Shown piece after piece: positions 19,648-29,928 of a DNA stretch of 39,307 bases. Source of the stretch: Nocardioidaceae bacterium (GTDB taxonomy: Bacteria > Actinomycetota > Actinomycetes > Propionibacteriales > Nocardioidaceae); NCBI GenBank assembly GCA_013696555.1, contig JACCYJ010000265.1, positions 1 to 39,307 of the forward strand. Reading direction: 5' to 3'. Position 1 is the stretch's first letter, and each line of letters opens with the position of its first letter. Under the pieces are notes generated by a model. The model was not told the origin of the DNA and searched no databases. It saw only the letters and a list, made by a program, of their open reading frames with translations. Made by a program: the position numbers and the translations under genes.

Positions 19648-20460
19648 TCAGCCGGTGTCAGCGTTGTCCGCGGCTGCCTGCAGCACAGCCTTGACCTGAA
19701 ACGACGTCAAACCCGGGTGTTTGGACAACAATGCGGTGATCAGCCCTGCCACATGCGGTGTCGCGAAGCTGTTTCCGGTAGCAACGATCGAGCCACCCCC
19801 TTGCCACGCCACGTCGACATCGATGCCACACGCGCCGTACTCGACCGGCGGACGAGGGTTGTACGCGATCGCGTACGGGTCGCTGCCCGGTCGGGCCGCC
19901 ACTGAGAACACCGACGCGAACTGTGACGGATAGGTCGGCCCCGGGACATTGTTCGCCGCGCATACGAGCATGACGTTGCGGAAGTACGCCTCGTCGGCGA
20001 TATCGTGCAGCGGCCCGAACCACTGGTCACTCTTGCTGCTCAGGCTCATGTTGACGACGTTCATGCCGTTCTCCAGCGCCCAGCGGATGCCGGCGAAGAA
20101 GGTGGCACCCTTTCCCTTGAGGTTCGCGCCGAGGACTCTGACGCTGTAGATCTCAGCTTCTGGTGCCAGCATCCGGATGATCGCCGCACATGCGGTGCCG
20201 TGCCCGACGAGATCCTCGTGCAGACCGGCTACCACCTTGGTCGCGCCGTCGGCGTCCAATTCGATCGAAACCGCCCCCGCCAGACCGCCGACCCGTGGAT
20301 GGTCGGCCTCGACGCCGCTGTCCACCACCGCCACTTTCACGCCGCGTCCGGTCGCGCCGCTCCACGCCCAGTCGCGGGCCGGAAGAGGCAACGGCAACGC
20401 TGCGACGGTCTCGATTCGATCGGGGTCGAAGGCACCGGCCCAGGCAGGTAGTCCGCTCAC
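19648..20460 (-). CDS. Intracellular S8 (subtilisin-like) serine protease
   Basis: This 270-residue protein is a subtilase with its complete triad: Asp47 in AVVDSGVEADHP, His87 in GHGTACAAI and Ser231 in TGNSFATPHVAGL; Asn170 (CAANN) is placed for the oxyanion hole. There is no signal peptide, prodomain or C-terminal extension, so it probably acts in the cytoplasm. It starts within the stop of the GAF gene (ATGA), making a two-gene operon that is divergent from crp-tldD-tldE. Small cytoplasmic subtilases next to peptide-processing genes can act in peptide maturation; that role here is inference from position only. Confidence 0.92.
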   Translation of the reverse strand: MSGLPAWAGAFDPDRIETVAALPLPLPARDWAWSGATGRGVKVAVVDSGVEADHPRVGGLAGAVSIELDADGATKVVAGLHEDLVGHGTACAAIIRMLAPEAEIYSVRVLGANLKGKGATFFAGIRWALENGMNVVNMSLSSKSDQWFGPLHDIADEAYFRNVMLVCAANNVPGPTYPSQFASVFSVAARPGSDPYAIAYNPRPPVEYGACGIDVDVAWQGGGSIVATGNSFATPHVAGLITALLSKHPGLTSFQVKAVLQAAADNADTG

Positions 20461-21191
20461 CGGCGGGACCGCGCAAAGGCAGCGACCTCTTCCAGCACCC
20501 GCCGCGCCAGGACCGATGCGTCCGATCCCAGGCTGGCGAGGTCGTGGAAGGCGGCGGCCAAACCGGCAAGCTCGTCATCTTCTCTGGTGGCAAGCTCGCG
20601 CAGTGCGGCACCGAACGCCGCCTCGTCGTCCGACTGCGCAATAGCGCGCAACAGAACGGCGCCAAGGTTGTCGTAGACCTGGGCCAACCGCACGATCGAA
20701 GCAACCTGATCCCCCACGGTCCCAAGGACGTCAAGCGCGCGCCCGGTGTCGTCTGCTCCGAGCTGCGGATCGAGTGCCTCGATGACCCCGAGCACACCGC
20801 CCTCCTCGTCCATCAACGGGACCGCCAAGATGCTCGTCGGCACATAGTTGGTGGCCTCAGCGACGTCGCGGGCGTGGCGCGGGTCGCGGCTGACATCACC
20901 CACCGCTATCCCTTGACCCGCCATCGCGACCCAGCCGGCGATGCCGCGTCCCATCGGCATCGTCACGTCGATGATCGCCTGTGAGCCGGCTCCGTCGGCG
21001 GCGACAAACCGCAACGACGCACCGTCCGGCTCCACCAGCGCAACGGAACACGCCGCTGCGTCGAGCAGCTGCCGCACGCTGGCCGCCGCACGTGCCAGTT
21101 CGGCACGAAGTGTCGTCGGTCGAGTCGCTTGACCGGCGAGGTCACCGATGCGTACGAGGAGCGCGGCCAGCTCTGGCGACGGCGTAGTCAT
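20457..21191 (-). CDS. GAF-domain protein
   Basis: This 244-residue protein is dominated by one GAF domain from about residue 20 to 170 (hallmarks VALVEPDGASLRFVAADG, GRGIAGWVAMAGQGIAVGDV and YVPTSILAVPLMDEEGGVLGVIEA). The last 75 residues are helical and acidic with no output enzyme domain visible. GAF domains bind small ligands such as cyclic nucleotides, or act in dimer contacts. It is the first gene of the GAF-subtilase operon and faces the Crp-family gene across 70 bp, so both sensors could share control. The ligand is unknown. Confidence 0.85.
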   Translation of the reverse strand: MTTPSPELAALLVRIGDLAGQATRPTTLRAELARAAASVRQLLDAAACSVALVEPDGASLRFVAADGAGSQAIIDVTMPMGRGIAGWVAMAGQGIAVGDVSRDPRHARDVAEATNYVPTSILAVPLMDEEGGVLGVIEALDPQLGADDTGRALDVLGTVGDQVASIVRLAQVYDNLGAVLLRAIAQSDDEAAFGAALRELATREDDELAGLAAAFHDLASLGSDASVLARRVLEEVAAFARSRR

Positions 21192-21261
21192 GCGGACATC
21201 TTGGCGGATGCACTCGATAACCGTAATGACGTGTCACCTGATTTGTGGTCGACTGAGCGCC

Positions 21262-21918
21262 GTGCAGTGGCAACTGCTGTCCAGCCTGTCCGAGGCAGAC
21301 AGGGCTCGCGTGCTCGACGCGACGCGACCCTGCCGCTTCGATCGTGGCGAGGTGCTCGTCCACGAGGGTGACCCAGGCGAGAGTTTGCACCTGGTACGGC
21401 GGGGCCGCCTCGGCGTGCGGGTGTCGCGTCCGACCGGGGAGTCGCTGACGTTGAACGTCCTCTCGCCGGGGGATGCATTCGGCGAGCTGGCGGCCATAGG
21501 ACAGGCGCATCGGCGCACCGCAACGGTGGTGGCATTTGAGCCCGCAGAGACCCTTGCGCTGAGCGGAACTGCTTTCCAGGCGCTCTGCCAACAGCACCCG
21601 GCCGTGGAACGGCTGGTCGTCCGCTTGCTTGTCGAACGCGTCGACCAGCTGAGCCAACGACTCATCGAGGCCTTGTACGTCGGAGTGGACCAGCGCGTGT
21701 TTCGCCGGCTCAACGAGTTGTGCGACATCTACGGTGACGGGGCGCCTGGCACCGTCATTCCGCTCACCCAGGACGATCTCGCCGGACTGGCCGGTGCCAG
21801 CCGACCGACCGTCAACCAGGTGTTGCAGCGGCTCTTGGCCGAAGGCGTTCTCGAAGTGGGTCGGGGACGACTCCGCGTGCTGGACCCGGCGGGATTGCGG
21901 CTTAGAGCCGCCGCCTGA
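21262..21918 (+). CDS. Crp/Fnr-family transcription regulator
   Basis: This is a 218-residue two-domain regulator. Residues about 10-120 are a cyclic-nucleotide-binding domain with a phosphate cassette retaining Glu and Arg (GELAAIGQAHRRTATV). The C-terminus is a winged helix with LTQDDLAGLAGASRPTVNQV as the recognition region. The GTG at 21262 fits the usual length; in-frame ATGs at 21229 and 21190 would add residues outside the fold. It lies 5 nt before tldD, so it is probably cotranscribed with tldD and tldE and may control the peptide genes beyond. Ligand binding is predicted from the cassette, not shown. Confidence 0.88.
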   Translation: MQWQLLSSLSEADRARVLDATRPCRFDRGEVLVHEGDPGESLHLVRRGRLGVRVSRPTGESLTLNVLSPGDAFGELAAIGQAHRRTATVVAFEPAETLALSGTAFQALCQQHPAVERLVVRLLVERVDQLSQRLIEALYVGVDQRVFRRLNELCDIYGDGAPGTVIPLTQDDLAGLAGASRPTVNQVLQRLLAEGVLEVGRGRLRVLDPAGLRLRAAA

Positions 21919-21923
21919 GTCGG

Positions 21924-23333
21924 ATGAACGAGCTGCCTGTCGACGACGATGACCTCGGCGCCGTGCTCTGGAGTGCCTTGCGTGCGGGCGGCCACTGGGC
22001 CGAGGTGTTCCTCGAACGGCGATCCACCGAGACTCTTCGGCTCGCCGGTGGTGGCGTTGCCGAGATCCGCAGTGACCTCGACCTCGGTGCCGGTGTCCGC
22101 GTGGTGACATCGGGTCGTGCGGGATACGCGTACACCAACATCGTGACCCGTCGTTCGCTCGTCGAAGCCGCTGAGGCCGCCGCGATCGCGAGCGGCGCCG
22201 CGTCCTCGGTACGGGCGGAACGTCCGGTCGACCTTCGGCAGCGAACCGTCTCGCCCGCGCAACACGCGCAGCGTGCTCCCGCCGACGTCACCTCGCCCGA
22301 AAAGGTTGCACTCTTGCGCCGGGTCGACGCCGCCGCCAGAGGGCGAAGCATCCAGGTACGCGACGTCACGGCAACCCATGTCGACGTAACCCAGTCGATG
22401 CTGGTGGCTACGACCGACAGCGGCATCGCCCGGGACCAGCGGGTACGGACCCGGCTCACCTGCCAGGTCACCGCCCGGCGAGACGGCCGGATGCAGACCG
22501 GCTTCGACGGGCCCGGCATCGGCGGCGGCATGGAGCTGTACAAAGGTGATGCCCCGGAAACCATCGGCGTCCGAGCCGCCGAACGTGCCGTACGCGCGCT
22601 CGATGGCATCGAGCCGCCGAACGGGCGTTTGCCCGTCGTCCTCGGGCCGTCCGGCGGCGGATTGCTTCTCCACGAGGCGTGCGGGCACGGCCTCGAGGCC
22701 GATGCCCTGACCCATGGCGGCAGCATTTACGCGCGCACCATCGGCGACCTAGTGGGCAGCGAGCTGATCACGGCGGTGGATGACCCCGGCATCGCCGGAG
22801 GATTCGGCTCGTACGGTATCGACGACGAGGGAGCCGAGGCGAGGCGCACGGTGCTGCTGGACCGTGGGATCCAGCTTGGTGCGCTGAGCGACCGCTCCAA
22901 CCCCGTCACCGGGACAACAGGGACGTCCGCCAACGGCCGGCGCGCGTCGTACGCGGATCCACCGCTGGCACGGATGAGCAACACCTATATCCGGCCCGGT
23001 TCGTCGTCAGCCCAGGATGTCCTCGGCAGCGTTGTCGACGGGATCTACGTCGCCCGGCTGCGTGGTGGTGATGTTGACGTGACGTCGGGCGAGTTCGCCT
23101 TCACCGCTGCCGAGGCTTCTCTCATCGAGGATGGTGGGATCGGTCGGCCGTTGCTCTCCCTGAGCTTGCTCGGCAACGGACCCGACGCGCTTAGATCTGT
23201 CGAAGCCGTGGCTGACGACCTCTCGTTCGTGCAGGCGCTCTGCGGCAAGGAGGGCCAGTGGGTGCCCGTCTCGTACGGCAGCCCCACCCTTCTTCTCGGC
23301 GGCATCACCGTGACGGGGTCCGGCGGTGGCTGA
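21924..23333 (+). CDS. tldD: TldD-family metalloprotease subunit
   Basis: TldD is the catalytic half of the TldD/TldE heterodimer, which in enterobacteria removes leader peptides (microcin B17 maturation) and degrades CcdA. This 469-residue protein carries the active-site motif HExxxH as HEACGHGLEAD (His250, Glu251, His255) and the C-terminal CGKEGQWVPVSYGSP segment that supplies a further metal ligand. Length is normal. It is the second gene of a crp-tldD-tldE operon and overlaps tldE by 8 nt. A set of short peptide genes lies just beyond, which makes a peptide-trimming role here plausible. Confidence 0.93.
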   Translation: MNELPVDDDDLGAVLWSALRAGGHWAEVFLERRSTETLRLAGGGVAEIRSDLDLGAGVRVVTSGRAGYAYTNIVTRRSLVEAAEAAAIASGAASSVRAERPVDLRQRTVSPAQHAQRAPADVTSPEKVALLRRVDAAARGRSIQVRDVTATHVDVTQSMLVATTDSGIARDQRVRTRLTCQVTARRDGRMQTGFDGPGIGGGMELYKGDAPETIGVRAAERAVRALDGIEPPNGRLPVVLGPSGGGLLLHEACGHGLEADALTHGGSIYARTIGDLVGSELITAVDDPGIAGGFGSYGIDDEGAEARRTVLLDRGIQLGALSDRSNPVTGTTGTSANGRRASYADPPLARMSNTYIRPGSSSAQDVLGSVVDGIYVARLRGGDVDVTSGEFAFTAAEASLIEDGGIGRPLLSLSLLGNGPDALRSVEAVADDLSFVQALCGKEGQWVPVSYGSPTLLLGGITVTGSGGG

Positions 23334-24669
23334 GCTGTTAGACCTTGCGTCGGGCATCCTCCCCTTGGCTGCACCGGGTGAGGAGTTGGAGGCGTACGCG
23401 GTCCACCGGACCTCGACGACGGTCCAGGCCGGAACTGGCGGGGTGGTCCGGAACGTGGGGAAGGCGGAGGCCCGAGGAGTCGGCGTACGACTGCTGGCCA
23501 GGACCCGCATGGGGTACGCGTCGACAGCGGACCTGTCTCGCGCCGGTCTCGCCGACGCCGTGGTTCGATCTCGCCAGAACGCTGCTGCTGCTGATCCGGA
23601 CGAGGCAGTCGCATTGCCCACGCCCGAGCCCGTCATCGCGGCAACGCAGCTATGGAACGAAGTGTTGTCCCAGCTACCGCTGGAGGCCAAGGTGGGGTTG
23701 GCGACGGATATCGCTCGGCGGGTAACGATGATCGACCCGCAGATTCGGTCGATCGACACGGCGGAGTACTACGACGAGTCGGTGGTCACCGCTGTGGCCT
23801 CCACCAGTGGTGTCCGAGTTGAGGATCGGCACGGGTACGTCGAGTTGTCCACGGACGCAATCGGAGAATCCACCGACGGTAGTGTCGCGGACTACAGCTA
23901 CTGGTGCGGACGCGATCCCGGCCTCATCGACATCGAGTGGTTGGCTGCGGAGGCGGTGTCTCGGACCATCCGGCTGATGTGCTCTTCCGCGAAGCGGCTC
24001 ACGGGCCTACCGGTCGTCCTGGACCGCGCGGTGGTCGGGTCTCTCCTGGTGGCGATCGGCCGCGCCTGCTCCGGTGGGCCGCTGTCGTCGGGGCGCAGCG
24101 CATTCGCTGATCTGCACGGTTCGCTCGTAGGAGCCGCCTCGGTAAATCTGATGGATGACGGCCGCTGTCCGGCGGCACCAGCAGCAGCGCTGATCGATGA
24201 CGAGGGAGTGCCGAGGCGAAGCACGACGCTCATCGACGGCGGCGTCCTTGTTGGCGCCTTGCACACAACGACAACAGCACGAGCGATTGGCGGGAATGCC
24301 CGAACGACGGGAAACGCGCGCCGGATAACACACAGGTCGTCGCCGCGGGCTGCCCCATCGGCGTTGGTTCTGCAGCCGACGTGCTCCCTGGCCCAGCTGT
24401 TGGCCGCGGCGGGTGACGCCACCTATCTCCAACAGGTGACTGGCAGTCAGTCCGGCATCAGCTCGGTCACGGGGCGGGTCAACGCCGGTGCTATGGGTTT
24501 CCGCCTCCGTGCGGGTGAGCCAAGTGGTCGCTTGCCAACGACAGCGGTCGCCACCAACCTGCAGGCGTTTCTGTCCTCGATCCTCATGGTCGCTGACGAC
24601 ATCCTGGCCGTACCCGACGTGCCCGTGCTTGCCGCGACGGTCTTGTGCGCGCCGGGCTGGTTGCCCTAG
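23326..24669 (+). CDS. tldE: TldE/PmbA-family protease subunit
   Basis: This 447-residue partner of TldD lacks the HExxxH motif, as expected of TldE/PmbA. It has the family's N-terminal domain (AYAVHRTSTTVQAGTGGVVRNVGKAEARGVGVRL pattern, here in two halves) and the C-terminal TGSQSGISSVTGRVNAGAMGF region that lines the cleft. The GTG start lies 8 nt inside tldD, so the two subunits are made together. Its stop codon at 24667-24669 abuts, with no spacer, the stop codon of the convergent peptide gene at 24670. Confidence 0.9.
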   Translation: MAELLDLASGILPLAAPGEELEAYAVHRTSTTVQAGTGGVVRNVGKAEARGVGVRLLARTRMGYASTADLSRAGLADAVVRSRQNAAAADPDEAVALPTPEPVIAATQLWNEVLSQLPLEAKVGLATDIARRVTMIDPQIRSIDTAEYYDESVVTAVASTSGVRVEDRHGYVELSTDAIGESTDGSVADYSYWCGRDPGLIDIEWLAAEAVSRTIRLMCSSAKRLTGLPVVLDRAVVGSLLVAIGRACSGGPLSSGRSAFADLHGSLVGAASVNLMDDGRCPAAPAAALIDDEGVPRRSTTLIDGGVLVGALHTTTTARAIGGNARTTGNARRITHRSSPRAAPSALVLQPTCSLAQLLAAAGDATYLQQVTGSQSGISSVTGRVNAGAMGFRLRAGEPSGRLPTTAVATNLQAFLSSILMVADDILAVPDVPVLAATVLCAPGWLP

Positions 24670-24819
24670 CTACTTGGGGTCGAGCGGGCCAAGCGTCGAT
24701 CGACCGTCGGCGGTCGCACGGTTGGCGGGGCTCATGTGTCCTGCAACGTCGTCTTCGGTCTCAGCCGCCTCATCGACGTTGTCGGCCACGGGCTCAGGCG
24801 CCTTGTCTGACGAGCGCAT
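24670..24819 (-). CDS. Small peptide 1, candidate precursor with DDVAGH box (49 residues)
   Basis: The ATG at 24819 has AAGGAG 6 nt upstream, a near-ideal ribosome binding site. The 49-residue product is very acidic in its first half (Asp/Glu-rich, TEDDVAGHM at 21-29) and ends with GRSTLGPLDPK. The DDVAGH box at residues 23-28 recalls the DVE(A/G)H box of the two other small peptides nearby, although what follows His differs. There is no Cys and no membrane span. It stands last in the minus-strand order peptide 3, MFS, peptide 2, peptide 1 and abuts tldE. I do not recognise the family. A TldD/E substrate is an inference from position and peptide shape. Confidence 0.7.
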   Translation of the reverse strand: MRSSDKAPEPVADNVDEAAETEDDVAGHMSPANRATADGRSTLGPLDPK

Positions 24820-24942: not shown

Positions 24943-25080
24943 TCAGTACATGCCCTTCCGGCGGTGGCCCTCGACGTCGTCGTCACCCTCGGAACCCTCG
25001 GCATCGGCGTACATGCCCCTCCGACGGTGAGCCTCGACGTCTTCGGCGGACTCGTTGTTGCCTTGCTGCTGTTCGGTCAT
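24943..25080 (-). CDS. Small peptide 2, candidate precursor with two DVExHRRxGMY repeats (45 residues)
   Basis: The ATG at 25080 is preceded by AAGGAG with a 6-nt gap. The 45-residue product has a 13-residue polar leader (MTEQQQGNNESAE), then DVEAHRRRGMY at residues 14-24, an acidic linker (ADAEGSEGDD), and DVEGHRRKGMY at residues 35-45 ending exactly at the C-terminus. The two 33-nt units differ by both synonymous and conservative changes, which argues for selection on the protein. Length and leader match peptide 3, which has the same box at the same residues. A repeated, sharply bounded core in a tiny acidic gene beside TldD/TldE and an exporter is the usual look of a ribosomally made, modified peptide. 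No modifying enzyme apart from the protease is evident. Confidence 0.8.
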   Translation of the reverse strand: MTEQQQGNNESAEDVEAHRRRGMYADAEGSEGDDDVEGHRRKGMY

Positions 25081-25150
25081 GACCTGCTCCTTACCGTTTC
25101 CGTCCGGCATTTGCACCGGCTAGCCACCAGGATTACTGGTAATGGTCTCT

Positions 25151-25161
25151 TCGTACCGTCG
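25151..25161 (-). promoter_or_regulatory. Shared upstream motif of peptide 2
   Basis: TCGTACCGTCG (CGACGGTACGA on the gene strand) lies 70 nt before the peptide 2 start; the same 11-mer lies 61 nt before the peptide 3 start. It may be part of a promoter or an operator. Nearby, ACCAG-GATTA-CTGGT at 25126-25140 is a small palindrome. The surrounding 25162-25197 is unusually A/T-rich for this genome. Confidence 0.4.
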
Positions 25162-25197
25162 CCTGGCTGACACAAATGACAACAAATTTCTCACCCA

Positions 25198-26886
25198 TCA
25201 ACCTCCCGGGCTCGCAGCCAGTCCCAACCCCCTCGAGGGGTGCGTCCTGCTGAGACGGGCCGACGCCCCCTCCAGCAGGGCCGCCGAGGGCCCCGCCTCG
25301 GTCAAGGCGTCGGTGAAGTCGTCACCGGGCACCCGCAGCAGACGGGACGGGTCCAACGACACGACCGTCGCAGTACGAGGTGTCTGCTCGATCAATCCGA
25401 TCTCCCCGAAGTACTCTCCGGGGCACAGGTCCCGAATCCGCTTCTCATCGAGCGCCTCTCCATGTGCCGACACCGTCATCCGCCCCTGGACTATGACGTA
25501 GAAAGCGTCGGCCTCCTCACCCTCTCGTACGATTGCCACTCCAGCCGGCACGTCCACGTACTCCGCGGCACCCGCCAGTTGTTCGACCGCGCCGGACGAG
25601 CTCGACTCGAAGAGGTCACAGCCCTCCAACCACCGCACCGCAGGTGCCAGCTCGGCTTTCCGTTTCGCGGACTGCCGGTCCATGACTCGCAGCGCCGGTA
25701 CGCCAAGCAGGCACAGCAGCGGCACGCCTGCACCCGCCAGCCACAGAGTTGCGTCGAATCCGAACACATCGATGGCCAACGGAGTAAGCAATGCGGCGAG
25801 AACGATCGAACCCAGAACCAGCGCGCCAAAGACTCCGAAAACCCTCGCCGTCTGCGTGGAGGGCAGCGCCCGCTGCAACGCGGTCACCGCCAATACGTCG
25901 ACGACGATGGTGCCCGCTCCCCGGACGACCTCTACGACGAACCCCAAAACGGGGCTAGAGGTTGTCAGGAAGAGAAGTGTCGGCAGGCAGTAGAACGCGA
26001 TCCCCACCAAGATCACGGGGCCGAGTTGAGGAAGCCTTTCGATCCGCGGGATGAACCCCGCGATGAGGATTCCGCCGACGCCAAGGCCCATGAGCAGGTA
26101 CCCATATCCCTCCGCACCGGTTCCTAGGATGTCACGAGAGAGAACGACGAACTGCACCGTGTCCACGCCATATACGAAGCTCGCGACGAGACTGAATGCC
26201 ACGAGAACCGCAGCTGTCTGCGACGCCATAATCGCCTTGACACCTACCAACATCTGGCGAAGTGGACCGACGTCGCCGCCTTCGGTGACGTCCACAGTCC
26301 TGCTCCTCGTGCGGACGCGACTCACGACGACAGCGGACAGCAGGAAGCTGACCGCGTTGAGCAAGATGCATGCCCACGCGGGGCCACCCAGAAGCATGAG
26401 TGCCCCAAGCGCCGGGCCGGCGATGACGACCAGTTCTTCGACGGTGTTCCGCAGGGCGTTCGCGGACCCGAGATCTCGCTCCCCCACCACCTGGGGCGTC
26501 AGCGCCGCCGATGCGGGCTCGTACACCGTGCCGATGGTTGACGCGACCGCAGCGGCCACTATGGCTAGCACCACCGGTGCATGGGCCGCTGTCAACAGCG
26601 CAAGCACCACCATGACCGCAGCGGATGAGAGATCGAGCACCACCATGAGCCGAACCCGTTCGAAGCGCTCCGCGATCACCCCCGCGTACGCGCTGAACAG
26701 CAGGGCGGGCACGAACCGTCCGATCGTGGCGGCGCCCACCCAACCTGCTGACCCGGTTTCTTGAAAGATCCAGACCGTAATCGCCACTGCGTATGCCCAA
26801 GAACATGCGAAGGAAACGGTCGACGCACCCATGAGCAGCCGGAAGTCCCGGTGCCGAAGGCTTGTCAGTATGGCGGGTCGCTTCAC
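25198..26886 (-). CDS. MFS transporter with C-terminal cyclic-nucleotide-binding domain
   Basis: This 562-residue membrane protein has about twelve hydrophobic spans in residues 1-405, and an MFS-type loop AGVIAERFERVR after the second span. Residues about 415-545 are a soluble CNB domain with a phosphate cassette retaining Glu and Arg (GEYFGEIGLIEQTPRTATV). Export could thus be gated by a cyclic nucleotide. The start is GTG at 26886 with GGAG 10 nt upstream; an ATG at 26912 is in a frame that stops at once. It lies between peptide 3 and peptide 2 in the same direction, which suits a peptide exporter or immunity pump, but MFS substrates cannot be read from sequence. Confidence 0.88.
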   Translation of the reverse strand: MKRPAILTSLRHRDFRLLMGASTVSFACSWAYAVAITVWIFQETGSAGWVGAATIGRFVPALLFSAYAGVIAERFERVRLMVVLDLSSAAVMVVLALLTAAHAPVVLAIVAAAVASTIGTVYEPASAALTPQVVGERDLGSANALRNTVEELVVIAGPALGALMLLGGPAWACILLNAVSFLLSAVVVSRVRTRSRTVDVTEGGDVGPLRQMLVGVKAIMASQTAAVLVAFSLVASFVYGVDTVQFVVLSRDILGTGAEGYGYLLMGLGVGGILIAGFIPRIERLPQLGPVILVGIAFYCLPTLLFLTTSSPVLGFVVEVVRGAGTIVVDVLAVTALQRALPSTQTARVFGVFGALVLGSIVLAALLTPLAIDVFGFDATLWLAGAGVPLLCLLGVPALRVMDRQSAKRKAELAPAVRWLEGCDLFESSSSGAVEQLAGAAEYVDVPAGVAIVREGEEADAFYVIVQGRMTVSAHGEALDEKRIRDLCPGEYFGEIGLIEQTPRTATVVSLDPSRLLRVPGDDFTDALTEAGPSAALLEGASARLSRTHPSRGLGLAASPGG

Positions 26887-26922
26887 GACCGGACCACTCC
26901 GGAGCCGGTCATGACGAGCGGA

Positions 26923-27060
26923 TCAGCGGGTGGGTGGAGCGGAAGGTGGGGTGGGGTACGCGTCGTCGATGGCCGAGTCGGCGTCCAGGAAGTGGCCGAA
27001 GCGGCCGTGCCCCTCGACGTCGTCGGCGTCGGAGTCGGCTTCGTGCGGCTGGTCGGTCAT
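26923..27060 (-). CDS. Small peptide 3, candidate precursor with DVEGH box (45 residues)
   Basis: The ATG at 27060 has GAGGAG with a 5-nt gap. The product is 45 residues, exactly the length of peptide 2. A 13-residue acidic leader (MTDQPHEADSDAD) is followed by DVEGHGRFGHF at residues 14-24, the same positions as the first box of peptide 2. The second half (LDADSAIDDAYPTPPSAPPTR) has no second box and is Pro-rich. Together the boxes give the consensus DVE-(A/G)-H-(R/G)-R-x-G-(M/H)-(Y/F). It precedes the MFS gene by 36 nt in the same direction and is divergent from the metallo-hydrolase gene. The family is not one I recognise. Confidence 0.78.
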   Translation of the reverse strand: MTDQPHEADSDADDVEGHGRFGHFLDADSAIDDAYPTPPSAPPTR

Positions 27061-27191: not shown

Positions 27192-28019
27192 ATGCGCATC
27201 GTCCTCCACGGGGTCCGGGGCTCGACTCCCGCCCCGGGGGCGGACTTCCTTCGCGTCGGCGGCAGCACGTCATGTCTCGGAGTGGCCCCTATGGGCTCTG
27301 CTGCCCCAACACTGCTTTTGGACGCCGGGACCGGATTATCGTCAGTCAGCCGTTCGTTGGCCGGGGCTCCCTTCGTCGGTGACATCTTGTTGACGCACCT
27401 CCACTGGGACCACGTTCAGGGATTGCCGTTCTTCCGAGCGGGTGACCGTGATGATGCCGCGGTCAGGCTGATGCTTCCCGCGCAGTGCGAAGCGTCACCC
27501 GATCGTCCCGGCTCGGCCGCCGAGCTCCTCGGTCGTTCGATGTCGCCGCCCCACTTCCCCATCGGGCCTGACGGGTTGCGAGGCGATTGGACGTTCGACG
27601 CCATTGCCGAAGGCAGCTTCGTGGCAGGCGGTTGTACGGTGACGGCCGTCGAGGTGCCCCATAAGGGCGGCCGGACGTTCGGTTACCGGGTCGAGGCTGA
27701 CGGCGCGAGTCTCGCGTACCTGCCGGACCACCACCCGGCGATCGACCCCGGCCCCGGGCTCGAGCTAGCGCGTGACGTCGACGCGCTGTGCCACGGGGCC
27801 ATGTTCGCCGACTCAGAGCGCGCAATCGCCCATGCGTACGGCCATGCGACCCTCGGTGAAACACACCGGTTGGCTCAGGAAGCCGGCGTCGGCCGGCTCG
27901 TACTCATCCACCATGCGCCCTCGCGTACCGACGACGAGATCGACGCGTTGGCGCGGCAAATCCCCGCGGACGACCCGCCGGTGTCGGTCGGCCGCGAAGG
28001 CGACGTCGTGCTCGGGTGA
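27192..28019 (+). CDS. Metallo-beta-lactamase-fold hydrolase (possible phosphodiesterase type)
   Basis: This 275-residue protein has the binuclear metal motif HxHxDH as LTHLHWDHVQGLPFF (His69, His71, Asp73, His74). The N-terminus RIVLHGVRGSTPAPG and the late HAYGHATLGET and LVLIHHAPSRTDDE segments place it in the RNase Z/phosphodiesterase-like branch and not the lactamase branch. Relatives with this motif include cyclic-nucleotide phosphodiesterases, and three CNB-domain genes lie close by, so cNMP hydrolysis is a reasonable guess. There is no signal peptide. It is transcribed away from peptide 3 and ends convergent with the CNB protein gene, with repeat B between them. Confidence 0.85.
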   Translation: MRIVLHGVRGSTPAPGADFLRVGGSTSCLGVAPMGSAAPTLLLDAGTGLSSVSRSLAGAPFVGDILLTHLHWDHVQGLPFFRAGDRDDAAVRLMLPAQCEASPDRPGSAAELLGRSMSPPHFPIGPDGLRGDWTFDAIAEGSFVAGGCTVTAVEVPHKGGRTFGYRVEADGASLAYLPDHHPAIDPGPGLELARDVDALCHGAMFADSERAIAHAYGHATLGETHRLAQEAGVGRLVLIHHAPSRTDDEIDALARQIPADDPPVSVGREGDVVLG

Positions 28020-28142: not shown

Positions 28143-28811
28143 TCACGCCATGGCGGATCGAGCGGCCTCACACTGGCGTAGCCGACCGCAGACGTTCACC
28201 AGCAGGGTGTGGGCCACGTCAGGATGGGTCTTGATCACCTGGTTGAACTCGAATCTGTCGATCGCGAATGTCTTCATCCCGTCGTCACCAGCCTTGACTG
28301 TCGCCGAGCGGGGCTTGCCGTCGATCAGCGAGATCTCACCGAAGTAGTCTCCGGGCTTCAGCTCACCCCGAGCCGATCCGCCCACGGTCACCTGGGCACT
28401 GCCGTCCATGACGTAGTGGAAGGCAGCGGCGCCACGACCTTCAGCAGCGACTTCCCTACCGGGCTTGTGGTCGACCTCGCGACCACCCTCGATCAGTTGC
28501 CTCAGCACTCGCTTGGGACAGCCGGCGAACAGCCGCACTTCCCCGAGCCGGGTTGCGATGTCGTCGCTCAATCTGGCCACCTCCTGCGGTCTGCTCACCT
28601 TAGAGGCCAGGATCATTCGTTCGCCAGAGTCACCGGCAGGCTGGGGTCGGCGAACACCTTCCCTCGTTGACTGCGGTTTGACCGCCTTCCGCTGCAACAA
28701 GAGTTCGCTAGGATTCTGCTCTTCGCACACGCGATGCGGGGATGGTGCCTTCCGATCGCGGTAGTCACCGCCGCACGCGAGTTTTTCCCTAGCGAGAGCC
28801 TCGTCGGACAT
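28143..28811 (-). CDS. Cyclic-nucleotide-binding domain protein
   Basis: This 222-residue protein has a single CNB domain in residues about 95-215, with the phosphate cassette GDYFGEISLIDGKPRSATV retaining Glu and Arg. No DNA-binding or enzyme domain follows, so it resembles a stand-alone cNMP sensor or regulatory subunit. The first 70-90 residues are polar, Arg/Lys/Pro-rich and probably disordered. The ATG at 28811 (GAGGA with a 5-nt gap) is chosen; a TTG at about 28571, with GGAGG 8 nt upstream, would give a domain-only protein and cannot be ruled out. It follows cobT by 43 nt on the same strand. Confidence 0.8.
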   Translation of the reverse strand: MSDEALAREKLACGGDYRDRKAPSPHRVCEEQNPSELLLQRKAVKPQSTREGVRRPQPAGDSGERMILASKVSRPQEVARLSDDIATRLGEVRLFAGCPKRVLRQLIEGGREVDHKPGREVAAEGRGAAAFHYVMDGSAQVTVGGSARGELKPGDYFGEISLIDGKPRSATVKAGDDGMKTFAIDRFEFNQVIKTHPDVAHTLLVNVCGRLRQCEAARSAMA

Positions 28812-28854
28812 CTCAATCCTCGGCTTCACGGGTTCAGTCGCCCGGCGTCTGACA

Positions 28855-29928
28855 TCAGCCACGCCTGCTGACACCGGCCGACTCAAAGGTCGCCATCTCG
28901 CCGAGCAATGCGGCTGCGCTTCGGACCAACGGCAAGGCGAGAACCGCTCCGGTTCCCTCGCCCAGACGCAGCCCCAGATCGAGAAGCGGGGCCAGCCCCA
29001 GCCGAGCTAGCGCATGCGAGTGTCCCGCCTCGGCACTGAGGTGCCCGGCGATGCAGTAGTCGATCGCCAGCGGCTGGATTCTCTGGGCAACGAGGGCCGC
29101 CGCCGACGCGATGACCCCGTCGAGGATCACCGGGGTTCGGGTGCCGGCGGTTGCCAGGATCAGTCCCGCGAGGGCCGCGTGCTCCAGCCCGCCGAGGCAC
29201 GCCAGCACACGGATCGGGTCGTCGGATCGTGGCCGGTGCAGTGTCAGAGCCGTCTCGATGACCTCAATCTTGCGACGCCAGGTTTCGTCGTCGACGCCGG
29301 TCCCTCGACCGGTCACCTCGGTCGGCGGGGCGCCGGTGAAGGCCGCTATCAGGGCCGCGGAGGCGGTGGTGTTCGCGATGCCCATGTCGCCTGTGAGAAG
29401 ACAGTCAGTCCCCGCTGCGATCAACTCGCGTGCCGTCTCGACACCGACTCGAAGCGCCATGAGCGCCTGCGTGCGACTCATCGCCGGTTCACTACTCAAG
29501 TCGGCAGTTCCCGCGCGTACCCGGCGGGACAACACGTTGTCAGAGAGGGATACGGCCGAGGCGACGCCGACATCGAGCACTATCACCTCGGCCCCCACCT
29601 GCCGAGCCAGCACGTTGACCGCAGCGCCCCCTGCGCCGACGGTCGCCACCATCTGCGCGGTCACCCGCTGCGGCCAGGGCGTGACGCCGCGGGCGTGGAC
29701 ACCGTGGTCGCCCGCGGCCACGACGACGGTCGCCCGTTTCGGAACGGGAGGTGGGCACACCCCGGCCATCGCTGCCAGTGCCAGACCGAGTTCCTCCAGG
29801 CGCCCCAAAGCTCCAGCTGGTTTGGTGAGGGCAGCATTTTGTGCGACCGCCTCCGTCCACGCTGCCTGGTCCAGCGGTTCGATGCTTCCCGCGACACGCT
29901 CGACCAACTCGTCACCGATCCGCTCCAC
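28855..29928 (-). CDS. cobT: Nicotinate-nucleotide--dimethylbenzimidazole phosphoribosyltransferase
   Basis: CobT activates the lower-ligand base dimethylbenzimidazole for cobalamin assembly. This 357-residue protein has AALTKPAGALGRLEELG near the start, VVVAAGDHGVHARGVTPWP, TGDMGIANTTASAAL, and the catalytic Glu at about position 324 in LGEGTGAVLALP. The GTG at 29928 is chosen because AAGGAGG lies about 7 nt upstream; an in-frame start at 29994 would add 22 residues before the fold. No other cobalamin gene and no cobalamin riboswitch is visible nearby, so it may be an isolated salvage or repair copy. Confidence 0.93.
   Translation of the reverse strand: MERIGDELVERVAGSIEPLDQAAWTEAVAQNAALTKPAGALGRLEELGLALAAMAGVCPPPVPKRATVVVAAGDHGVHARGVTPWPQRVTAQMVATVGAGGAAVNVLARQVGAEVIVLDVGVASAVSLSDNVLSRRVRAGTADLSSEPAMSRTQALMALRVGVETARELIAAGTDCLLTGDMGIANTTASAALIAAFTGAPPTEVTGRGTGVDDETWRRKIEVIETALTLHRPRSDDPIRVLACLGGLEHAALAGLILATAGTRTPVILDGVIASAAALVAQRIQPLAIDYCIAGHLSAEAGHSHALARLGLAPLLDLGLRLGEGTGAVLALPLVRSAAALLGEMATFESAGVSRRG

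Follow-up and report, generated by a model that had tools for sequence, protein, structure and literature searches.

Short peptides that share the acidic sequence DVE(G/A)H, followed by a few divergent residues, are encoded on a contig of a Nocardioidaceae bacterium next to genes for a protease, a transporter and cyclic-nucleotide-binding proteins, and the question is what function these peptides perform. Two of them had been pointed out earlier from one stretch of 39,307 nucleotides, here called the window, which is a complete contig of a 2.8 Mb genome that its named relatives assign to the Nocardioidaceae. Taken together, our results suggest that they belong to a widespread, undescribed system that cuts and secretes small peptides under second-messenger control.

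Box peptides and neighbouring genes in the window

Peptide 2 (MTEQQQGNNESAEDVEAHRRRGMYADAEGSEGDDDVEGHRRKGMY; 24943..25080, minus strand) and peptide 3 (MTDQPHEADSDADDVEGHGRFGHFLDADSAIDDAYPTPPSAPPTR; 26923..27060, minus strand) are both 45 amino acids long and carry the box at residues 14-24, exactly as the original prediction placed it, and the ATG of each is preceded by a good Shine-Dalgarno sequence (aaggag and gaggaga, respectively). Their genes are 1.84 kb apart with the transporter gene in between, and the repetition of the box at residues 35-45 of peptide 2 was likewise borne out. Membership of a larger family allows a finer division of this element. In peptide 2 the first box proper is DVEAH (residues 14-18; 25027..25041) and the second, recovered as a pattern match, is DVEGH (residues 35-39; 24964..24978); the unit logic of the family makes RRRGMY (25009-25026) the putative core behind the first, and RRKGMY (24946-24963) would be its counterpart behind the second. 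Peptide 3 has one pattern-matched box, DVEGH (27007..27021), followed by GRFGHF (26989-27006) and a proline-rich tail. The variable part is made up of the residues behind the box (RRxGMY, GRFGHF). A third box peptide, absent from the original prediction, is encoded on the same strand at 24670..24819: peptide 1 (49 amino acids, MRSSDKAPEPVADNVDEAAETEDDVAGHMSPANRATADGRSTLGPLDPK), which has the Shine-Dalgarno sequence aaggaga and the variant box DVAGH (24736-24750). The window contains three matches to the degenerate box pattern, where 0.20 would be expected, and none of 100 shuffles reached three. In a profile search, peptides 1-3 gave no NCBIfam match.

Comparison with a sister species (genome G001) indicates, at the level of sequence, that the units of the window peptides turn over fast and that the boxes persist. 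The sister orthologue of peptide 2 has a different core and a single box (DAEGH), the second box being lost, and peptide 3 is kept with one extra box; the dN/dS of about 0.5 for peptide 3 covers 34 codons only, which is too short to weigh. The 13-residue leader described as common to peptides 2 and 3 holds in the window, but the sister species departs from it by starting its first box one residue earlier. Loss of the box in relatives had been named as grounds for abandoning the prediction; the box is conserved in the paralogous peptides and many homologues with it were found, but the sister peptide 2, which keeps one box only, counts against the prediction in part. The claim that the two 33-nucleotide units of peptide 2 reveal selection did not survive, since three codons differ and only one of them silently, so that this comparison alone shows no selection. 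The sister species also encodes, downstream of its protease gene (L122:1161-1901, plus strand), an extra box peptide (DTEGHARRLAEEQ..DDDVEGHIYVQEPG..), for which no counterpart was found in the window.

The protease (19648..20460, minus strand; 270 amino acids, without a signal peptide) is assigned to family S8 by its domain match (Pfam Peptidase_S8, 3.6e-24) and its Asp-His-Ser triad, D47/H87/S231, which is invariant in 43 sequences. Its start overlaps the stop of the gene for a GAF-domain protein (GTGA; 20457..21191, minus strand; 244 amino acids, Pfam GAF 9e-15). The nearest solved relatives of the latter include the cyclic-nucleotide GAF domains of a cyanobacterial adenylate cyclase and PDE2A, which makes binding of a cyclic nucleotide a prediction from likeness; no clear NKFDE motif was seen in the window protein. 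A regulator of the CRP type follows on the plus strand (21148..21918; Pfam cNMP_binding 2e-21, HTH_Crp_2 2e-15), its true start probably lying downstream of the listed ATG. The gene between peptides 2 and 3 encodes an exporter of 562 amino acids (25198..26886, minus strand; Pfam MFS_3 5e-22) with a C-terminal cNMP-binding domain (1e-19). A separate protein consisting of a cNMP-binding domain (28143..28886, minus strand; Pfam cNMP_binding 4e-11) has an uncertain start and is weakly linked to the cassette, and no class III cyclase was found near the window.

An MBL-fold hydrolase beside peptide 3 (27192..28019, plus strand; Pfam Lactamase_B_2, 1e-20) is a possible further member; its similarity to cyclic-nucleotide phosphodiesterases is weak (45 bits against a cut-off of 400), and it is a guess that it could close a cyclic-nucleotide loop. 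An MBL-fold hydrolase with likewise weak similarity to these phosphodiesterases stands beside the cassette at L145:8866-9672. Between the CRP gene and the peptides lie the profile-matched genes for TldD (21924-23333, plus strand) and TldE/PmbA (23326-24669, plus strand), an arrangement confined to this genus among the loci compared.

The box-peptide family and its anatomy

A two-box pattern, which favours DVEGH by construction, was run over 84,980 genomes and returned 60 stretches. In about three quarters of cases this is a short acidic peptide in which the box stands 2-12 times, as in DVEGHKLRGTTLNPEDDSEDDVEGHKLRGTTLNPEDDPEDDVEGHRLRGTT. In a class sample of 394 genomes the pattern matched seven times and the reversed pattern not once. 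Matches in Myxococcus, Pyxidicoccus, Sorangium, Serinicoccus and Variovorax were dropped because the box lies there in frames that are long and not acidic and that seem to run antisense to other genes. With loci reached through the transporter and the protease included, the collection covers 55 loci in Nocardioides, Aeromicrobium, Naasia, Jatrophihabitans, Thermoleophilia and Chloroflexota; it comprises 64 acidic peptides, which between them have 215 boxes. Profile searches found a model for these peptides in neither Pfam nor NCBIfam. Within the open-licence part of PMC, no biochemical paper on DVEGH was found, and among the matches listed, strings related to it led only to unrelated literature. 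The family is large and, as it appears, unnamed.

Each peptide has 1-12 copies of the D-V-E-(G/A)-H box, mostly with 14-25 residues from His to His. The mean net charge is -4.4 in the ten residues before the His and +1.0 in the eight after it. Identity over the six residues after the His is 48% when units of the same precursor are compared and 9% across loci, a contrast that is unaffected by the choice of boxes by motif. Between loci the box is 83% identical, partly as a result of pattern selection. From one repeat to the next, pN/pS comes to 0.09 in the box, 0.82 in the unit and 0.98 in the acidic spacer. Because the motif itself served to find the boxes, their values are inflated, the figure of 0.09 being partly fixed by that selection. 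It is on this wider comparison, read with that limit, that the box can be upheld as a constrained element. A conserved tag joined to a variable product is the anatomy of a precursor, and the box peptides share with RiPPs in general the combination of a conserved leader element and a variable core in a ribosomal precursor.

Several larger or extended forms were seen. In Chloroflexi, two proteins of about 440 amino acids (L053:2310-3644 and L054:3844-5172) have two N-terminal DVEGH boxes (..DEQDVEGHLF..DDDVEGHAISIHFPDAEQARRFRNELLAAG..) and a repetitive C-terminal part, and are possibly larger box-containing proteins. In Chloroflexota, the box peptides at L065:3-287 and L069:1-306 have a basic helix-like C-terminal extension (..SRPHKK and ..KRTHQKG) and lie at the opposite end of the cassette from a second box-peptide gene.

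The cassette at other loci and its relation to known systems

The genes that recur beside the peptides are those for the cytoplasmic S8 subtilase, the GAF protein, the MFS exporter with its cNMP domain, the CRP regulator and sometimes a class III cyclase. Neighbours were clustered, and the counts given here rest on profile searches of six-frame translations, because greedy gene calling by codon-position GC is rough; they are lower bounds, many loci being truncated contigs of metagenome-assembled genomes. Both the S8 and the GAF gene lie within 3 kb of the peptide at 43 of the 55 loci, and at 14 of the 16 loci that have 3 kb of sequence on both sides. In Nocardioides sp. PD653-B2 (L079) the two are fused. 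The exporter is present at 34 of the 55 peptide loci, and in 33 of these 34 its cNMP domain has the phosphate-binding sequence FGE(I/L)..PRTATV or a close variant. The CRP-type regulator is found in cassettes of Nocardioidaceae and Chloroflexota, and a large class III cyclase with an AAA ATPase domain accompanies some loci. At seven peptide loci, several of them truncated, no S8, GAF or MFS gene was seen in the sequence covered. No tailoring enzyme, metal transporter or metalloregulator recurs among the 104 neighbours of box-peptide loci. One recurrent neighbour cluster (c4) was discarded as the antisense frame of the S8 gene. Models of anti-phage systems with cyclic nucleotides (Pycsar, PADLOC) matched only the shared cNMP, cyclase or subtilase domains.

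The association can also be approached from the protease, independently of the motif. Among 245 Nocardioidaceae genomes, a search with S8 alone gave 13 matches, all with E<1e-100, and no other genome reached 1e-40; the system is accessory and occurs in about 5% of these genomes. A box peptide lies near 12 of the 13 S8 genes, and none is recognisable at the Nocardioidaceae cassette L126. At the level of the phylum, the same search led to a box peptide at L116, to a single terminal box-like sequence, DDDTQGF, at L115, and to L114, where an open reading frame and its ribosome-binding site alone revealed, beside S8, GAF and MFS genes, the repeats EDDTEGQRKRLDED with Gln in place of His. No peptide was recognised at L112 and L113. 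Nor was a box peptide found at L017 and L018, two loci with MFS relatives where S8 is absent. A search of plasmids with S8 found two megaplasmids, those of Miltoncostaea and Gemmatirosa; in the latter the S8 protein is distant and no clear GAF protein or box peptide was seen.

The S8 and GAF genes are also found with other precursors. Related S8, GAF and cyclase genes, together with an MFS gene, occur in aroma-sacti clusters (NF045560) of Streptomyces and of family f20 genomes, three of the five such clusters having a related radical SAM gene. In these precursors a short C-terminal unit comes after a leader that ends in PEVQAH, GDVEAH, QDVMAH, VDTAH or GEVEGQ, and the S8 proteins of these clusters nest inside a well-supported group with those of the box peptides (100/98). 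The Miltoncostaea megaplasmid has no box peptide; on it, the genes for S8, GAF, a precursor resembling NHLP (33.5, under the curated cut-off of 40), an MBL-fold protein and the MFS-cNMP exporter follow one another. The S8/GAF module is thus found with three or more kinds of ribosomal precursor, and this is the strongest argument for regarding the box peptides as its substrates. In one Streptomyces aroma-sacti cluster, a second small peptide (L120:2504-3139, minus strand; MSENTKPAAGDNNETETPEVEAHSVLDLQETPGVIDREIVPGNCVSTVSLVLG) has a box, then a longer tail with one Cys.

The box peptides thus share with the aroma-sacti type (StsA-related; NF045560/NF045559) the S8, GAF, cyclase and MFS relatives and the (D/E)V-x-(A/G)-(H/Q) box at the leader end. 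The aroma-sacti precursors differ in that their leader forms a folded domain and is followed by one unit, often with a radical SAM enzyme in the cluster, whereas the window peptides are without that leader domain and a radical SAM gene, and members of their family are often many-boxed. The NF045560 domain gave no match of its kind in peptides 1-3 or in six rich relatives, phmmer detected no aroma-sacti relatives in box-peptide loci, and the radical SAM proteins of the clusters have no relative there. No literature match was found in open-licence PMC for 'aroma-sacti' or for RiPP, cNMP and MFS combined.

Precursors with several units are known elsewhere. Cyanobactins are made from a multi-unit precursor, PatE, whose recognition sequences are repeated and which is processed by the S8 proteases PatA and PatG. 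The system described here may work in a similar way, but the window S8 reaches 23.6 bits against a PatA cut-off of 421, there is no YcaO or macrocyclase domain, and an MFS-cNMP protein is present instead. In yeast, the alpha-factor precursor MFalpha1 consists of tandem units with acidic spacers and is cut by Kex2, a protease of the subtilisin family; this is an analogy only, as it is eukaryotic and processing takes place in the secretory pathway. The closest named S8 families in NCBIfam are the leader peptidase QhpE (NF049966) and mycosin (TIGR03921), and the window S8 falls under both curated cut-offs (116.1 against 165 bits and 112 against 279 bits, respectively); no Qhp or type VII secretion genes were seen at the window locus. 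The actinobacterial peptide-processing systems of the FxSxx-COOH type also combine a small fast-evolving peptide, proposed to be a peptide signal or toxin, with a protease and, in some, a CRP-like cNMP regulator (PMC7159879). They have a zincin-like metallopeptidase and an AP-ATPase (PMC7159879, section 24), in place of which S8, GAF and MFS-cNMP are found here.

A proposed mechanism and its alternatives

We propose, with a probability of about 0.6, that the box peptides are multi-unit precursors that the S8 protease would cut at or near the box, with the MFS protein as their exporter under cyclic-nucleotide control. Peptides 1-3 would be ribosomal precursors of this system, kept soluble by their acidic leader and spacers, and each DVE(G/A)H box would be a recognition tag, marking where a leader or spacer ends and a short, variable and usually basic unit begins. 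The gene for the S8 protease shares an operon with the GAF gene; the enzyme, which is cytoplasmic, may cut at or near these tags and free the units, which the MFS protein would export, gated through its cNMP domain. A cyclic nucleotide could act on the MFS protein, on CRP and perhaps on GAF, so that expression and activity would be set by CRP and GAF, along with the class III cyclase at loci that have one. Outside the cell the released units would most likely act as signals or antagonistic peptides. What the sequences show of this scheme is the family with its box/unit anatomy, the cassette, the intact S8 triad, the phosphate-binding motif of the cNMP domain and the presence of related S8/GAF modules beside known types of RiPP precursor; cleavage and its site, export, gating and function are inferred. 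Against it stand the cassettes in which no peptide was recognised, the seven peptide loci where S8, GAF and MFS were not seen and the fast change of the core in the window peptides; moreover, MFS proteins usually export small molecules.

In one alternative, the peptides are RiPP precursors and S8 cleavage comes after a chemical modification of their units, carried out by a protein of the cassette or by an enzyme whose gene lies elsewhere; the box would then be a leader end or a recognition sequence for that enzyme. The related S8/GAF modules in radical-SAM aroma-sacti clusters and beside the NHLP-type precursor fit this, as does the box at the aroma-sacti leader end. However, neither an aroma-sacti-related radical SAM enzyme near any box-peptide locus nor a recurring tailoring family among the neighbours was found, and this reading is considered unlikely. 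Since no tailoring enzyme recurs, unmodified units are plausible; the fuller statement, that tandem unmodified units cut by the subtilase at DVE(G/A)H and exported by a cNMP-gated MFS protein form a new, widespread class in Actinomycetota and Chloroflexota, a bacterial counterpart of the alpha-factor logic, is put forward tentatively, with the odds somewhat against it. A maturation protease may also be sought next door, as TldD/TldE mature some RiPPs, such as microcin B17 and klebsazolicin, and their genes stand between S8/GAF/CRP and the peptides; but the pair occurs at two loci only, the window and the sister species, so that it probably lies outside the peptide system, and a role of this kind was rejected as very improbable.

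The peptides might instead remain uncut inside the cell, where as disordered molecules they would regulate or inhibit S8 or GAF or serve them as adaptors, the repeats giving avidity. They are acidic, repetitive, probably disordered and nearly always beside S8/GAF, and a cytoplasmic subtilase needs control. On the other hand, units that are alike within a precursor and unlike between loci, together with an MFS exporter in the cassette, fit a substrate better than an inhibitor, which leaves intracellular regulation improbable. Metal binding or modification of the His, as suggested originally, could draw on the fact that each box of the window peptides contains His, Asp and Glu; yet Gln replaces His in the L114 repeats and the GEVEGQ precursors of the aroma-sacti type, in otherwise equal systems, so that the His is not essential, and the neighbours include no recurring metal transporter or metalloregulator. 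The Gln-box variant led us to reject such chemistry as the main reading, and we give it next to no weight.

If processing and export by S8 and MFS hold, soil and marine Actinomycetota and Chloroflexota would possess a secretion system for small peptides, in phyla for which, to our knowledge, few peptide signals are known, and the sequence of the product could be read from the genome. The cNMP-domain MFS protein would tie cyclic-nucleotide signalling directly to peptide export, and the S8, GAF and cyclase genes of aroma-sacti clusters would be explained as a maturation and export module common to several precursor types. The system is open to experiment in cultured strains, namely Naasia lichenicola YIM 131853, Aeromicrobium sp. 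9AM, whose multi-box precursor has DVEGHRVLR five times, and Nocardioides sp. Root240. In the last of these, a second box peptide lies 12 kb away from the main cassette and directly adjoins a giant surface-type protein (L027:11776-19482, minus strand; PKD, fn3, TIG and C25-like peptidase domains).
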